From Planctomycetia bacterium (GTDB taxonomy: Bacteria; Planctomycetota; Phycisphaerae; UBA1845; UTPLA1), in assembly GCA_015200345.1 (NCBI GenBank), contig CP054187.1, forward strand, positions 1 through 64,000: a stretch of 64,000 nucleotides of DNA. The letters run 5' to 3'. Positions 3,135-23,494 of this stretch are shown piece by piece. Position 1 is the stretch's first letter. Each line of letters begins with the position of its first letter. The notes beneath the pieces are model-generated. The model made no database searches and was not told where the DNA came from. It saw only the letters and a list, made by a program, of their open reading frames with translations. A program made the position numbers and the translations under genes.

Positions 3135-3207
3135 GGGGACGTAGCTCAGTTGGGAGAGCGGCTCGTTCGCAATGAGCAGGTCGAGGGTTCGAATCCCTTC
3201 GTCTCCA
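3135..3207 (+). tRNA. tRNA-Ala(CGC)
   Basis: A 73-base cloverleaf. The 7-bp acceptor stem GGGGACG/CGTCTCC contains the G3-U70 wobble that identifies alanine tRNA. The D-arm is GCTC/GAGC, the anticodon loop TTCGCAA gives anticodon CGC (3168-3170), and the T-arm carries GGTTCGAATCC. The discriminator is A and CCA is not encoded. Confidence 0.95.
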
Positions 3208-14570: not shown

Positions 14571-14825
14571 ATGGCGATGGAATCTCACGAATACATGCTG
14601 GCGTTTCTGGGAAATCTGGGCCCGTGGGAGTTGATCGTCATCGGCATTGTCGCGCTGCTTCTTTTCGGCAAGCGCCTGCCGGAAGTGGGCCGATCCCTGG
14701 GGCGTGGGATCGTCGAATTCAAAAAAGGCCTGCGTGAGACGGGCGATGAGATCAACGCCGCCGGGAACACGACGGGATCCGACACCGCGCGGCCTGCCAA
14801 GTCGGCGGATAAGCCGATGGACTAA
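14571..14825 (+). CDS. tatA: Twin-arginine translocase TatA/TatE
   Basis: An 84-residue protein with the TatA architecture: one N-terminal transmembrane helix (GPWELIVIGIVALLLFG), the FG hinge followed by KRLPEVGRSLGRGIVEFKKG amphipathic helix, then a short polar tail. TatA oligomers form the channel that exports folded proteins. AAAGG precedes ATG 14571. TatB and TatC are not adjacent, a common arrangement in this phylum. Confidence 0.92.
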   Translation: MAMESHEYMLAFLGNLGPWELIVIGIVALLLFGKRLPEVGRSLGRGIVEFKKGLRETGDEINAAGNTTGSDTARPAKSADKPMD

Positions 14826-15210
14826 GCACGTAATTCGACGCACCTGGCGATGCCGCGCCGTTGCCAGTTTACTTTTGCTAATCTGAATCGACCCCCGCGT
14901 CGTGCCATCGGAATGTCGTCCACGCCCGTGATGGGTTGCTCGAGCGATTCGCCGGGAATACTCGGACCATTGGGCGGGGCGCCGATCGGTGCTCAATTGG
15001 ATACTCGCGGTCATTTCACACGTGGTTGCCCCGGGCATGCCACCATTATCTGCCGCGGATCAAACGTCCGAGATGCGTTGGGTTAGATGCCCCATTGCTG
15101 CCTCCATACCCGCCCTGATTGATCACTTCACGTCCGTCAACGTCCGATGACAACCCATCGAAGCGGGGTATGGCCGGTCCCCGGCAGCGCGTACCCACCC
15201 GCGCATCGGA
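14826..15210. other. Intergenic region, nothing recognised
   Basis: A 385-base gap between tatA and the response-regulator gene. Short frames here lack homology or RBS. It presumably carries the promoter of the signalling gene; no clear element could be assigned. Confidence 0.4.
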
Positions 15211-15645
15211 GTGAAACATCGCTTGTTTGAGAACCTTCAACAGGTTGGCGAGCTGACGGCGATGGTCGTGGACGACGACCCTCGGCTGCGCGCCCTGTGC
15301 CGCGCGCTGCTGGAGCGCGACGGGTGGCAGGTGCTCGAAGCGTCGGACGGCGCCAAGGCGATCGAAATCGCCCAATCACAGCCGCTCGACGCTATCGTTA
15401 TGGATGTCGTGATGCCCGGCATGGATGGTTACGAAACCACGCGCGCTCTGCGAGCCGACGCCATGACCGCCAACACGCCGATCGTGATGCTTAGCGCGTG
15501 CGTGGAACCCGATGCGGTGCTTCAGGGCCTGAAAAGCGGCGCGGATGAATACCTCGGCAAACCGGTTCATCCGGAGGAATTCATCCTGCGAATGCGAGCG
15601 ATGAGCCGGCTGCGTCGGGTCGCGCGCGAGCTGGAGCGCAGCTAA
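15211..15645 (+). CDS. Response-regulator receiver; N-terminal part of a split HD-GYP regulator
   Basis: A 144-residue frame starting at GTG 15211. It is a complete receiver domain: acidic pair in MVVDDDPRLRALC, phospho-acceptor Asp in IVMDVVMPGMDGYE, the Ser switch in VMLSAC and the conserved Lys in LGKPVHPEEF. It ends with a coiled-coil-like linker (VARELERS) and TAA. The same reading frame continues without a shift into the GAF/HD-GYP gene, and the residues just after the TAA continue the linker (ERLGEQSWALN). This looks like the front of a receiver-GAF-HD-GYP protein interrupted by a nonsense codon. Confidence 0.85.
   Translation: MKHRLFENLQQVGELTAMVVDDDPRLRALCRALLERDGWQVLEASDGAKAIEIAQSQPLDAIVMDVVMPGMDGYETTRALRADAMTANTPIVMLSACVEPDAVLQGLKSGADEYLGKPVHPEEFILRMRAMSRLRRVARELERS
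15643..15645 (+). other. In-frame TAA splitting receiver and GAF/HD-GYP halves
   Basis: The TAA lies between LERS and ERLGEQSWALN in one uninterrupted frame spanning 15211-16914. Receiver-GAF-HD-GYP fusions commonly have a linker of this type, and a Tyr codon (TAT or TAC) at this spot would give a normal coiled coil. One base change accounts for it. Confidence 0.7.
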
Positions 15646-15672
15646 GAGCGACTGGGCGAACAGTCGTGGGCA

Positions 15673-16914
15673 TTGAATTGTCTGCTGGACTTCTCCACGG
15701 CGCTTTCGCGGGCGGAAACGCTTGAGGCGGTCTATGACCGGATGCTGGGATTGGCGGTCACGTTGACCGCATGTCGCCGCGTCATCATCGCCATTTCAAT
15801 CGATAACGGCGATCTGGATGTCGTTCGTGCGAGCCGTCGTGAAGACATGATGGCGGGGCCGATCGCGCGCGTGGGCACGATCTGCGGCGAAGTGATGGAA
15901 ACCGGCAAGACGCTGGTGGTGGAAGACGACCAGGCGGCCTCCCAGTGGTCCGGTCGAGCGGATTTTGACTTCCTTACTCATGCGCCGAGCGTGGCGATCC
16001 CGATCACGTCACGCGATCAGTCTCTGGGGGTCATCTGCGCGAGCGGCCGCGTCGGTGGAGGCCTGTTCACGCCGCAGGATCTGGAGTATCTCGAACTGGC
16101 AGCCGCGTATGCGGCCTCCGCGATACACATGATCCAGACCTGCAAGGCACGCGATGCGGCGCGCGATGCCATCGTCGTCGGCCTGGCGCAACTTGCCGAA
16201 CATCGCGACGACGACACCGGAAAACACCTTGAGCGCGTGGCCAGTTACTGCGTCGAGATCGCCGAAGCCCTGCGAGAAGACGCGCCGTACGATCGGATCG
16301 TCACCGATGAATTCTTGAGCAACCTACAGCTCGCGGCGCCGCTGCACGACATCGGTAAAGTCGCCATTCCCGACGCCATCCTCCTCAAGCCCGGTCGGCT
16401 GACCACCGAGGAGCGCGACGTCATGCGCATGCATACGGCGATCGGCGCTGAAACCATTCGTTCGCTCATGGCCCACGCCCCCGATTCCGCATTCTTGCGA
16501 ATGGCCGAGGACATCACCCATGCGCATCACGAATGGTTTGACGGCCGCGGCTACCCGCGCCAGCTTACGGGTGAGCAGATTCCGCTGGCCGCTCGCATTG
16601 TCGCCATCGCCGACGTCTACGACGCCCTGCGTACCGAGCGCATCTACAAACAGCGGATGTCGCATGACCAAGCCGTGAAGCACATCCTCGAAGCCTCGGG
16701 CACGCAATTCGATCCCGTTCTTGTCGAAGCCTTCTTCCGCCAACTGAAGGCCATTGAACGATTGGCCGCGCACCTGTCGGATCGAAATGCGGGCGCCAAA
16801 CACCATCGTTCCAATCACGTCGCTTGGGCGAACAGAAAGGTCAATCCGGAGAGCGTCACCCCGCAGTCGGAAACTCAAGCGGATGCCCTGCGACCATCTG
16901 AACGTGCTTCGTGA
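15673..16914 (+). CDS. GAF + HD-GYP c-di-GMP phosphodiesterase; C-terminal part of a split regulator
   Basis: A 413-residue frame if started at TTG 15673. It has a GAF domain (about residues 5-155), then an HD-GYP domain with HLERVASYC, the metal-binding HDIGK, HTAIGAETI, HAHHEWFDGRGYP and IADVYDALRTERIYK. HD-GYP enzymes hydrolyse cyclic di-GMP. No RBS precedes the TTG and the reading frame is continuous with the receiver gene upstream except for one TAA. Translation would need readthrough, reinitiation or a different start. The last ~60 residues are unconserved. The catalytic core looks intact, so the phosphodiesterase may be expressed without its receiver, or be silent. Confidence 0.85.
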   Translation: MNCLLDFSTALSRAETLEAVYDRMLGLAVTLTACRRVIIAISIDNGDLDVVRASRREDMMAGPIARVGTICGEVMETGKTLVVEDDQAASQWSGRADFDFLTHAPSVAIPITSRDQSLGVICASGRVGGGLFTPQDLEYLELAAAYAASAIHMIQTCKARDAARDAIVVGLAQLAEHRDDDTGKHLERVASYCVEIAEALREDAPYDRIVTDEFLSNLQLAAPLHDIGKVAIPDAILLKPGRLTTEERDVMRMHTAIGAETIRSLMAHAPDSAFLRMAEDITHAHHEWFDGRGYPRQLTGEQIPLAARIVAIADVYDALRTERIYKQRMSHDQAVKHILEASGTQFDPVLVEAFFRQLKAIERLAAHLSDRNAGAKHHRSNHVAWANRKVNPESVTPQSETQADALRPSERAS

Positions 16915-16977
16915 AACCGCTGCCGGTCTGCGTTTCATCGCGGGCCGGTCCATCTCCATTTGAGTAATCTGTCGATC

Positions 16978-17226
16978 TTGTCACCTCCGTGGTACAGTTG
17001 ACAGCCCGGCTGCCAGTCAGATTGACACGCTCCGCCATGCACGGCTGCACTCTGCTTATCGCTGTTACTTCTGCATTGACAGTAAGTTACGAGCATTTTC
17101 CGCCGTTTGAATCGCCCGGCATCTCCCGCTGGCACGCGATGTGCTTATGGCTCGCAGGAGCTTTCACAGGTCGGTCGGGTCCGAACCTGAAATCCAGACG
17201 GAGAACTTGTTGCGCGGAGGTGACGA
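16978..17226 (+). promoter_or_regulatory. Possible anti-Shine-Dalgarno pairing in hsp20 leader
   Basis: Bases 16978-16991 (TTGTCACCTCCGTG) are complementary to 17213-17226 (CGCGGAGGTGACGA), which contains the strong GGAGG of the first hsp20 gene. The duplex would be 14 bp with two G-U wobbles and an uninterrupted 10-bp Watson-Crick core, burying the whole RBS. If the transcript starts before 16978 this could act as an RNA thermometer. No transcription start or other leader structure is known, so the role is inference. The rest of 16915-17229 holds no gene I can support. Confidence 0.35.
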
Positions 17227-17229
17227 ATC

Positions 17230-17652
17230 ATGTTCATGAATCGAATGCTGCTGGCGCCGGAACTGGTCCGGCGGGAGATGAGCGAGCTGCTTGACAACGT
17301 TTTCAACGGTCGCGAGGCCCGAGCGCGCACCTTCCCGGCGTTGAACATCTGGGAGGAGGGCGACCATCTGTTCGCCGAGGCCGAGTTGCCCGGGCTGGGA
17401 ATGGAAGACATCGAGCTGTTCGTCGTCGGTAGCGAGCTGACCATCAAGGGGCAGCGCAAGCCGATGGTCGAGGAGAACGCCAATTACCATCGTCGCGAGC
17501 GCGGCGTCGGCGAGTTCTGCCGCACGGTCACGCTCCCGGTTGAGATCGATGCCGACAAGGTTGAGGCGACCCTGAAGAACGGCGTGCTGACGGTCAAGTT
17601 GCCGAAGGCCGAGGCGGCACGTCCCCGGAAGATCAGCGTTCGCTCGGAGTAA
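17230..17652 (+). CDS. Small heat-shock protein Hsp20 (first of three)
   Basis: A 140-residue alpha-crystallin-domain chaperone. The beta-sandwich begins at FPALNIWEEGDHLFAEAELPG and ends with the conserved VEATLKNGVLTVKLPK. Small heat-shock proteins hold unfolding proteins in oligomers without ATP. The C-terminal I-x-I-type anchor is weak (RKISVRSE). GGAGG at 17216-17220 gives a strong RBS 9 bases from ATG 17230. It leads a tandem set of three divergent hsp20 genes. Confidence 0.95.
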   Translation: MFMNRMLLAPELVRREMSELLDNVFNGREARARTFPALNIWEEGDHLFAEAELPGLGMEDIELFVVGSELTIKGQRKPMVEENANYHRRERGVGEFCRTVTLPVEIDADKVEATLKNGVLTVKLPKAEAARPRKISVRSE

Positions 17653-17658
17653 CGAGGG

Positions 17659-17683
17659 AGCGGGTTTCGCTGTCAAACCCGCT
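17659..17683 (+). repeat. 9-bp perfect hairpin after first hsp20
   Basis: AGCGGGTTT and AAACCCGCT flank a 7-base loop, 7 bases after the stop of the first hsp20. No T-run follows, so it is more likely an mRNA-stabilising or processing structure, or a weak attenuator, than a terminator. A second short hairpin (CGCGCG, loop TGAAT, CGCGCG, 17708-17724) lies immediately before the RBS of the next hsp20. Confidence 0.5.
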
Positions 17684-17739
17684 GTGAATGATTGAGGAGT
17701 CAGGCGACGCGCGTGAATCGCGCGAGAGGAGAATGAGCC

Positions 17740-18147
17740 ATGTCAACGAATGCAGCCATTGACAAGCCGGCGGCGCCGCAGAACGTCGTGGCAACGCCGG
17801 AACCGACCCGCAGCGGCCGAACGTATGTGCCGGCGGTGGACATCATTGAGAAGGCCGACGAATTTCTGCTCTTTGCCGATGTGCCCGGAGCGACCGGCGA
17901 CCGGATCGACGTGAATTACGAGAACGGCCTGCTGACAATTCACGCGGATATTGATCCTGCGCCGCGATGTCGCGAAGGGTGCCTGCTTCGCGAGTATGGC
18001 GTGGGCGATTTTGATCGATCGTTCCGCATCGGCGAGGGAATCGATGCCAACGCGATTACAGCGGAGGTGCGCGACGGCGTGTTGATGCTTCGCCTGCCGA
18101 AGGTGGAGTCGGTCAAGCCGCGGCGGATCACCGTGAAATCGAAGTAA
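17740..18147 (+). CDS. Small heat-shock protein Hsp20 (second of three)
   Basis: A 135-residue alpha-crystallin protein. A disordered N-terminus (MSTNAAIDKPAAPQ) precedes YVPAVDIIEKADEFLLFADVPG. The domain continues to the typical ITAEVRDGVLMLRLPK and ends RRITVKSK, where I-x-V can serve as the oligomer anchor. GAGGAG precedes ATG 17740, directly downstream of a GC-rich hairpin. It is clearly diverged from its two neighbours, so this is an old duplication; the different termini suggest mixed oligomers or distinct clients. Confidence 0.93.
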   Translation: MSTNAAIDKPAAPQNVVATPEPTRSGRTYVPAVDIIEKADEFLLFADVPGATGDRIDVNYENGLLTIHADIDPAPRCREGCLLREYGVGDFDRSFRIGEGIDANAITAEVRDGVLMLRLPKVESVKPRRITVKSK

Positions 18148-18286
18148 CTTTGCGACACAAGCGTTGAAGGAAATCACACGGGACGCGGCGCGACCGGCCA
18201 ACAGGAAAATGTCGGAATTCGGATAAGCGATCGGCCGGCGCGTCCCCCGATCACGTCAACGATTGCAGTGAAGGAGGTGTTGGTTC

Positions 18287-18763
18287 ATGAATCTGGTACC
18301 GTGGAGAAACAAACGAGAAGAGTCGATGGACACGAGCTTGGCGCGCATGCGCGAGGAGATGGACAACCTGTTCGAACGCTGGATGGGCGGCGGGCGCGGT
18401 TTCTTTGAGCCGCTGGGCGAACTGTTCCGCAGCGGCGTCGGCCCGCGCGTCGAACTGTCCGAGTCGGACAAGGAAATCACGCTCAAGGCCGAGCTGCCCG
18501 GCGTGCGACCCGACGACGTCGAGATCAGCATCGAGGGCAACATGCTCGTCCTGCGCGGTGAGAAGAAGCACGAAAAAGAAGAGCGCAAGCGAGATTACCA
18601 TTACGTCGAACGGCAGTTCGGCAGCTTCCATCGTGCGATCCCGCTGCCCAGCACGATCGATCCGAACAAGGTCGAGGCGACCTACAAGGACGGCGTGCTC
18701 TCGGTTTCGGTGGCCAAACGCCCCGAGGCCCAGCCCAAGCGCATCGCCGTGAAGGCCGGTTAA
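18287..18763 (+). CDS. Small heat-shock protein Hsp20 (third of three)
   Basis: A 158-residue protein closest to the classic bacterial class A Hsp20. The N-terminal arm includes REEMDNLFERWMGG, the crystallin domain runs from GPRVELSESDKEITLKAELPGV to VEATYKDGVLSVSVAK, and the tail KRIAVKAG holds the I-x-V anchor. Start ATG 18287 has AAGGAGG upstream. The 139-base gap from the second hsp20 suggests it may have its own promoter as well. Confidence 0.95.
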   Translation: MNLVPWRNKREESMDTSLARMREEMDNLFERWMGGGRGFFEPLGELFRSGVGPRVELSESDKEITLKAELPGVRPDDVEISIEGNMLVLRGEKKHEKEERKRDYHYVERQFGSFHRAIPLPSTIDPNKVEATYKDGVLSVSVAKRPEAQPKRIAVKAG

Positions 18764-21076: not shown

Positions 21077-23494
21077 CTATGCTTGGCGTTTGCAACCGAC
21101 CAGTTGCTTGCTGGCGGCGGAGCAATCCCCGTCTGGTTCGGAAGCGGCTCGGCCGCAAAGCCAGCCGGTCTGAACCCGGAATTTCTCCACCTGTTCGGGC
21201 GTCATCGGCTTGCCTAACAGATATCCCTGTCCGAACTCGCAGTTGATGGATAGCAGGAGACCGACCTGATCCAGGCTCTCGATGCCCTCGGCCACAACTC
21301 GGATTCCAAGGTTGTGCGCAAGCTGGTTCGCGGAATGGATCAACGCAATAAAATCGCGTCCGCGGTTGATGTTGGCGACAAAGGAGCGGTCGATCTTCAG
21401 CACATCGATGGGGAACTCGTGCAGACAGGAGAGGGACGAGTGCCCCGTCCCGAAATCATCGAAGCACAATACGCACCCGATTTGTTTGAGACCGTGCAGA
21501 ATCCGCTTCGCGAATTCGACATCCCGCATCGCCATGCTTTCTGTGATCTCCAGGTGCAGGCAGGAAGGGGGAACGCCCGTTTCCTCAAGAATCCGTCCGA
21601 TCATTGCGGGGAGATTCACTACGGCGAGCTGCGTGCGCGACAGGTTGACGCTGATGCTGCGCGGCGAGGCATTTCCCATGTTCTGCCGCCACCGGTCGAA
21701 TTGCCGGCACGACTCCCGTAAGACCCATTCGCCGATCGGGACCATCAGTCCAATCTCCTCGGCAATCGGGACGAACTGGCTCGGCGGGATCAGACCGCGC
21801 TCCGGATGCTTCCAGCGGATCAACGCTTCCACGCCATCCATTTCACCGGTCTCAAGCGACACGATGGGCTGATACATCAGGAACAACTGGCCGCCGTCCA
21901 GCGCTTTGCGCAAATCGGTTTCCAGTTTCAGGCGTTCTTCGACGCGCCGCCGCATCGATGCATCGAAGACGACATACCGGCCCTTGCCCGCCAGCTTGGC
22001 CTCGTACATGGCAGTGTCGGCGTTGCGCAGAACTTCCTCGACGTCGGCGACTTCCGAGACCAAATCACTGGACACAATGCCGATGCTCGCCGTCGCAAAC
22101 ACCTCATGGCTGCCCACATGGAAGGGTTGGGCGAAGGCCGTCATCAGTCGATCGGCGACGATCGTGGCGTCATCCGGGCTTTTGATGCCATCGAGCAACA
22201 TGACGAACTCATCGCCGCCGAAGCGGGCCGTGGTGTGCTCCCGGGCCTCACGGCTGATGGAGTCCCCGGACCGCACCACGTGGCGCAGCCGTTCGGCGAT
22301 ATCCCTCAACAACTCGTCACCGGCATCATGGCCCAGTCCGTCGTTGATCAATTTGAAGCGGTCGAAATCCAGGAACAGCACCGCAAAGCGGTAGTCCTTG
22401 GAACGCCGGGCGCGCAAGACGGCCTGATGAAGGCGGTCGGAGAACAGCGCCCGATTGGCCAGCCCGGTCAGCGCATCCGTTCGGGCCGCCTTTCGCAGTT
22501 CATCCTCCATCCGCTTGCGCAGCGTGATGTCTTCCTGCACGCCCACATAGTGGGTTATCCTGCCCTGTGCATCTTTCAAGGGCGAAATGACCGCGAGCAC
22601 CCAGTACAAGTCACCGTTCTTGCGGCGATTGCAGAGCTCCCCGCGCCACGTCGCTCCGGCTTTCAATTGGTTCCACATGTCCGCGTACTGCTGCGCCGGC
22701 GTCTGGCCGGACTTGAGAATGCGAGGGTTCTTCCCCATGACTTCCCCGGCCGCGTAGCCGCTGGTGGCCAGGAACGCCTGATTGACGAACTCGATCTTCC
22801 CCTCGACATCCGTAATGATGACGGGGGTCGGCGTCTGCTCCACGACCCGCGACAATTTGCGCAGTTCCACTTCCGATCGTCTGCGCTCGCTGATGTCGCT
22901 GATGAAACTGGCGAACGTGCGGCCGATCTCGCTCGTGCTAACGGATACACATAATTCGATAGGGAACTCGCAGCCGTCGCGGCGCAGCGCGGCCAGTTCG
23001 AGCCGCTGGTTCAGCACACGACTCACGCCGGTTTGCAGGAAACGCTCCAGGCCTGCCCGGTGCGCTGCACGGAATCGCTCGGGAATGATCAACTCGGCCA
23101 GATCGCGGCCGATCGCCTCATCGGCCGACCAGCCGAACAGTTTTTCGGCCTGCGGGTTCCAGTCCGTGATGCGGCCGTGCGCGTCCATTGTGACGATCGC
23201 GTGCAGCGCCGAGTCGAAAATCATCCGCGTCCGGGCCGCGATCGCCGCGAGACGTTTCTTGCCCGCGCGCTGGGCGGCGAGGCTCTTCCGCAGCGAGCCG
23301 CAAAGTATCCGCCAGACGGGGTATGCAGCGACGAATGCAAGCAGCGTCGAGTCCGCCAGCGCCTCAAGCCATGTCGGTGTATTGGCCGGCAAGAACAGCG
23401 GCAGGATGAACATCACCGCGGCTTCCGCCGCGTAGATGATCGCCAGCAGACCGAAGGCGAACCGCGAGAACGGAACCTCTTGCGCCGGCTTCAT
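21077..23494 (-). CDS. Membrane PAS-PAS-GGDEF-EAL cyclic-di-GMP protein
   Basis: An 805-residue sensor. Two N-terminal membrane helices (FGLLAIIYAAEAAVMFILPLF and a second near 45-62) are followed by two PAS domains (about 85-205 and 215-335), a GGDEF domain (about 345-510) with intact RFGGDEF, and an EAL domain (about 525-770) with intact EALIRW, DDFGTGHSSL and the catalytic acidic and Lys residues (LKIDRSF). Both diguanylate cyclase and phosphodiesterase sites look functional, so it could switch between making and degrading cyclic di-GMP in response to a PAS-sensed signal such as redox or a small ligand. It is monocistronic on the minus strand. Confidence 0.95.
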   Translation of the reverse strand: MKPAQEVPFSRFAFGLLAIIYAAEAAVMFILPLFLPANTPTWLEALADSTLLAFVAAYPVWRILCGSLRKSLAAQRAGKKRLAAIAARTRMIFDSALHAIVTMDAHGRITDWNPQAEKLFGWSADEAIGRDLAELIIPERFRAAHRAGLERFLQTGVSRVLNQRLELAALRRDGCEFPIELCVSVSTSEIGRTFASFISDISERRRSEVELRKLSRVVEQTPTPVIITDVEGKIEFVNQAFLATSGYAAGEVMGKNPRILKSGQTPAQQYADMWNQLKAGATWRGELCNRRKNGDLYWVLAVISPLKDAQGRITHYVGVQEDITLRKRMEDELRKAARTDALTGLANRALFSDRLHQAVLRARRSKDYRFAVLFLDFDRFKLINDGLGHDAGDELLRDIAERLRHVVRSGDSISREAREHTTARFGGDEFVMLLDGIKSPDDATIVADRLMTAFAQPFHVGSHEVFATASIGIVSSDLVSEVADVEEVLRNADTAMYEAKLAGKGRYVVFDASMRRRVEERLKLETDLRKALDGGQLFLMYQPIVSLETGEMDGVEALIRWKHPERGLIPPSQFVPIAEEIGLMVPIGEWVLRESCRQFDRWRQNMGNASPRSISVNLSRTQLAVVNLPAMIGRILEETGVPPSCLHLEITESMAMRDVEFAKRILHGLKQIGCVLCFDDFGTGHSSLSCLHEFPIDVLKIDRSFVANINRGRDFIALIHSANQLAHNLGIRVVAEGIESLDQVGLLLSINCEFGQGYLLGKPMTPEQVEKFRVQTGWLCGRAASEPDGDCSAASKQLVGCKRQA

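Follow-up and report, generated by a model that had tools for sequence, protein, structure and literature searches.

An in-frame TAA between the receiver and GAF-HD-GYP domains of a Planctomycetia response regulator gene: probably a recent nonsense substitution

Does the TAA at 15643-15645 of this window (a stretch of 64,000 nucleotides, the first 64 kb of one 3.88 Mb contig) divide what was a single response regulator gene, and if so, what has become of the enzyme encoded beyond it? Translation and Pfam searches agree with the sequence-only reading that a single forward-strand frame, 15211-16914, runs from a receiver through the TAA to GAF and HD-GYP domains: frame 1 yields 144 residues, one stop, 422 residues and a final stop. 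The first ORF (15211-15645, + strand) encodes the receiver domain (Response_reg, E 2.9e-28, ~15262-15591) with its long C-terminal helix, from a putative GTG start at 15211 that is also conserved in the sister genome G001, the sole other genome from this genus. The second part (15646-16914, + strand) is still open and encodes the remainder of the linker, GAF (~15715-16128; GAF_2, E 1.9e-14), HD-GYP (~16186-16719; HD_5, E 2e-31) and a variable C-terminal tail, ending at TGA 16912-16914. The receiver retains V20 D21 D22, D65 and K117, all invariant in a ten-row alignment, which we take to be the conserved receiver set including the phosphoacceptor Asp and the conserved Lys, as befits a receiver-controlled response regulator. 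In the sequence as given, the in-frame TAA keeps receiver and HD-GYP from sharing one polypeptide.

The gene is otherwise ordinary. A promoter scan of 14700-17300 found no sigma-70-like site, which says little against an expectation of 0.6. Its neighbours, named by eye, are a tatA-like gene upstream and a small-heat-shock-like gene downstream, and the DNA neighbourhood on both sides is shared with G001. Three consecutive ORFs at 17230-18763 resemble, by eye, small heat-shock proteins (Hsp20). A second c-di-GMP protein in the window is an 805-residue reverse-strand ORF at 21077-23494, in which PAS, GGDEF and EAL motifs were recognised by eye.

In an AlphaFold model (mean pLDDT 72.5, ~41 around the stop site) the stop takes the place of residue 145, where the receiver-exit helix (121-146) ends, ahead of helix 151-164 and of the first GAF helices. 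On this model, the stop would fall where a cut is least harmful to receiver or GAF.

Relatives place a sense codon at the interrupted position. The G001 homologue is a single open frame of 587 residues, 80% identical across the second half, with a tyrosine codon where TAA 15643-15645 stands; both flanks of the stop align without gaps to its uninterrupted linker, so the claim that the residues on either side form one continuous linker holds. We extended the comparison to an alignment of 30 relatives, of which 28 come from genomes sharing the genus, family or order of this one and two from named metagenome-assembled genomes (MAGs; L031 and L056, of 80 homologue loci); L022 and L030, whose matches started at residue 107, were left out, as were repeat copies of places already included. 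The named homologues are Planctomycetota MAGs at ~41% identity, which points to a Planctomycetota-like lineage for this genome. The proposed search for Tyr or another sense codon at this site found one in all 30: Tyr in 10, Asn in 9, Arg and Glu in 5 each, and His in 1. This variability indicates that the residue itself is not critical. In every aligned relative the frame passes uninterrupted through the site, and the aligned stretch is free of stops in all of them. The two halves as separate genes, which would have told against a split in this lineage, were sought in the same 30 rows and found in none, which rules out an ancestral pair of separate genes. Because a sense codon is present in 30/30 relatives, the split is new in this genome and the fused form is ancestral; relative to these intact homologues the frame here is disrupted, as in a pseudogene.

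How unusual such a lesion is was assessed by comparing 560 kb of this genome (G000) with 800 kb of G001, giving ~210 coding-like orthologue matches and ~85,000 codons. Two in-frame stops passed a flank filter, one of them 15643; the other (genome position 132631) belongs to an ORF judged by eye to be spurious antisense. The unfiltered in-frame stops (77 and 137) were mostly antisense ORFs and upstream extensions, and a third-position filter left 2 and 1, all of which except 15643 resemble antisense ORFs by eye. Long antisense ORFs are expected in GC-rich DNA; they are numerous in the window and in G000 1-560000, where they are a source of false in-frame stops between orthologues. Because the stop at 15643 is the only credible one in ~210 matches, the interrupted frame is not a matter of chance. 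The same 560 kb contained no credible frameshift against G001: two candidates were, by eye, wrong upstream extensions of real genes, and a third (row A_2902_3411, a G000 ORF against G001) was not counted, its match spanning a tRNA-Ala at 3135-3207.

These counts bear on the main competing explanation, a base-call or consensus error concealing a sense codon in an intact, ordinary response regulator, which we consider unlikely. The lack of any credible frameshift in 560 kb speaks for a clean assembly; the lack of any other credible in-frame stop in the compared sequence also tells against an error, and the TAA lies outside any homopolymer. Such an error would nevertheless produce the same picture in a species represented by one genome: a single wrong base explains everything, neither half shows decay, and one case per ~200 genes is plausible for an imperfect MAG.

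That the TAA is read through or recoded to give the full-length protein was another option of the sequence-only reading, and one that we find very improbable. The frame is continuous and constraint is equal on either side of the TAA, as full-length translation would predict. Against this, 47 tRNA genes were identified, none with an anticodon that would decode TAA, TAG or TGA and just one of them a tRNA-Tyr; TAA terminates 40 of 199 other coding-like ORFs; predicted RNA folding around the stop is no better than that of shuffled sequences (z -0.88); and the ~210 orthologue matches hold no further credible in-frame stop. With no stop-reading tRNA, a normally used terminator, no stimulating fold and a single instance, readthrough is unlikely, and the tRNAs, TAA usage and orthologue matches together rule out genome-wide reassignment or suppression.

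Whether the second half has decayed was addressed by its divergence from G001 (dS ~1.05). dN/dS is 0.124 before the stop and 0.119 after it, both near the median of the 210 coding-like matches (median dN/dS 0.107, median dN 0.081). By likelihood, the second-half branch is as long in G000 as in its sister (0.120 vs 0.129), and a bootstrap analysis gave 0.104 for G000 and 0.086 for G001, with an interval of the difference from -0.056 to 0.099. Across its 1266 bases there is neither a second stop nor a frameshift. Thus the relaxation expected of a pseudogene after its lesion is not seen. Taking ~0.5 synonymous substitutions per site on the branch and 3.0% of base changes as creating a stop, full neutrality along the whole branch would be expected to leave ~20 further stops in the second half; we estimate that any unconstrained phase of its history covers less than ~10-15% of the branch. 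Equal constraint and the lack of further lesions imply that the stop is recent, or is false, or that the second half is still made; if it is still translated and selected, a recent stop does not follow.

The receiver half behaves somewhat differently. Its likelihood branch is longer in G000 (0.206) than in G001 (0.071), an excess for which 2 of 60 bootstraps fell at or below zero, hinting that the uncoupling may be older. Parsimony polarises 16 changes against 10 (P 0.33), which is not significant, so that faster receiver evolution in G000 is suggestive by likelihood alone.

Could the second half be translated independently? The statement that no RBS or ATG precedes it is correct for the bases directly after the stop and gives way further on. 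The first in-frame ATG/GTG/TTG past the stop is a TTG at 15673-15675 (+ strand), a putative reinitiation site 27 nt beyond the stop codon with no Shine-Dalgarno four-mer upstream, and the first in-frame ATG is codon 33, at 15742-15744 (+ strand), with GAGG 15-18 nt upstream; a start at this ATG would cut into the GAF domain. The missing Shine-Dalgarno at the TTG says little, because just 32 of the 78 conserved ATG starts in G000 carry such a four-mer and the other 46 lack one.

Comparison with a characterised enzyme suggests what a restart would yield. The second half aligns with nearly the whole length of PmGH of Persephonella marina (PDB 4mcw/4mdz/4me4; E 5e-45, query 10-377), which PMC4159591 describes as a GAF-HD-GYP c-di-GMP phosphodiesterase active without a receiver. 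Query residue 10, where the similarity begins, is the TTG at 15673, so that a restart there would give a complete enzyme. Matched by hand, the PmGH metal ligands given in that source, H189, H221, D222, H250, H276, H277 and D305, align with identical residues here, and K225, D183 and GYP are likewise present. The alignment to 4mcw thus shows seven of eight ligands identical and GYP retained; the eighth, PmGH E185 (within 16186-16719 here), is Asp both in this gene and in G001. By these motifs the second half is a predicted c-di-GMP phosphodiesterase.

One account built on this match holds that the split is maintained, with a free receiver and a PmGH-like GAF-HD-GYP protein that is reinitiated at TTG 15673 and answers only to its GAF domain. 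We regard it as quite improbable, even though a protein beginning at that TTG would match nearly all of an enzyme active on its own (PMC4159591), the second half is still under constraint, the receiver shows a weak excess of change, and the 27-nt gap lies within the intercistronic distances for which bacterial restart is discussed in a review (PMC5972666). Weighing against it are the lack of a Shine-Dalgarno four-mer at the TTG, a receiver excess that is not significant by parsimony, and the occurrence of the split in one genome only. Gene fission under way, in which the enzyme is selected and restarted at TTG 15673 as the freed receiver diverges faster, seems to us similarly doubtful.

The best reading, and in our judgement a probable one, is a recent nonsense substitution that uncoupled the receiver from the phosphodiesterase. 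Among the three possibilities first proposed for the locus, nonsense mutation gains from the sense codons in 30/30 relatives, the 587-residue sister frame and the equal constraint of the two halves, and readthrough is disfavoured. We infer both that the base is real and which products are translated. The ancestral gene would have encoded a response regulator of the receiver-GAF-HD-GYP type, predicted to be a c-di-GMP phosphodiesterase, in which one base substitution, after the split from the sister species, may have converted a linker codon to TAA. Translation would now yield a free 144-residue receiver, and the GAF-HD-GYP enzyme would either no longer be made or be produced in small amounts through restart at TTG 15673, in either case without covalent control by receiver phosphorylation.

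Set beside known systems, the ancestral arrangement is familiar: receiver-GAF-HD-GYP regulators of other Planctomycetota (G001, JAJRWX010000010.1, JAJRPG010000102.1) share domain order and linker at ~40-80% identity; each is one open frame, whereas here a stop stands in the linker. PmGH resembles the second half in extent, but the domains here descend from a receiver-fused protein. A literature search found no HD-GYP case combining a premature stop codon with a receiver domain. Another close parallel is E. coli YcgG (CSS-EAL), which according to a review (PMC10333796) has lost its input domain in some strains and remains functional as an enzyme. Truncated YcgG, as described there, is like this gene a c-di-GMP phosphodiesterase separated from its input domain; it differs in arising by deletions, in being an EAL enzyme of demonstrated function and in losing a membrane sensor, compared with one stop and predicted activity here. 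If real, the TAA would be a clean natural example of a c-di-GMP phosphodiesterase being uncoupled from its phosphorylation switch by one substitution. Since truncations freeing c-di-GMP enzymes from input domains are already described in that review, it would be a further case of a known phenomenon, one that illustrates rather than overturns it.
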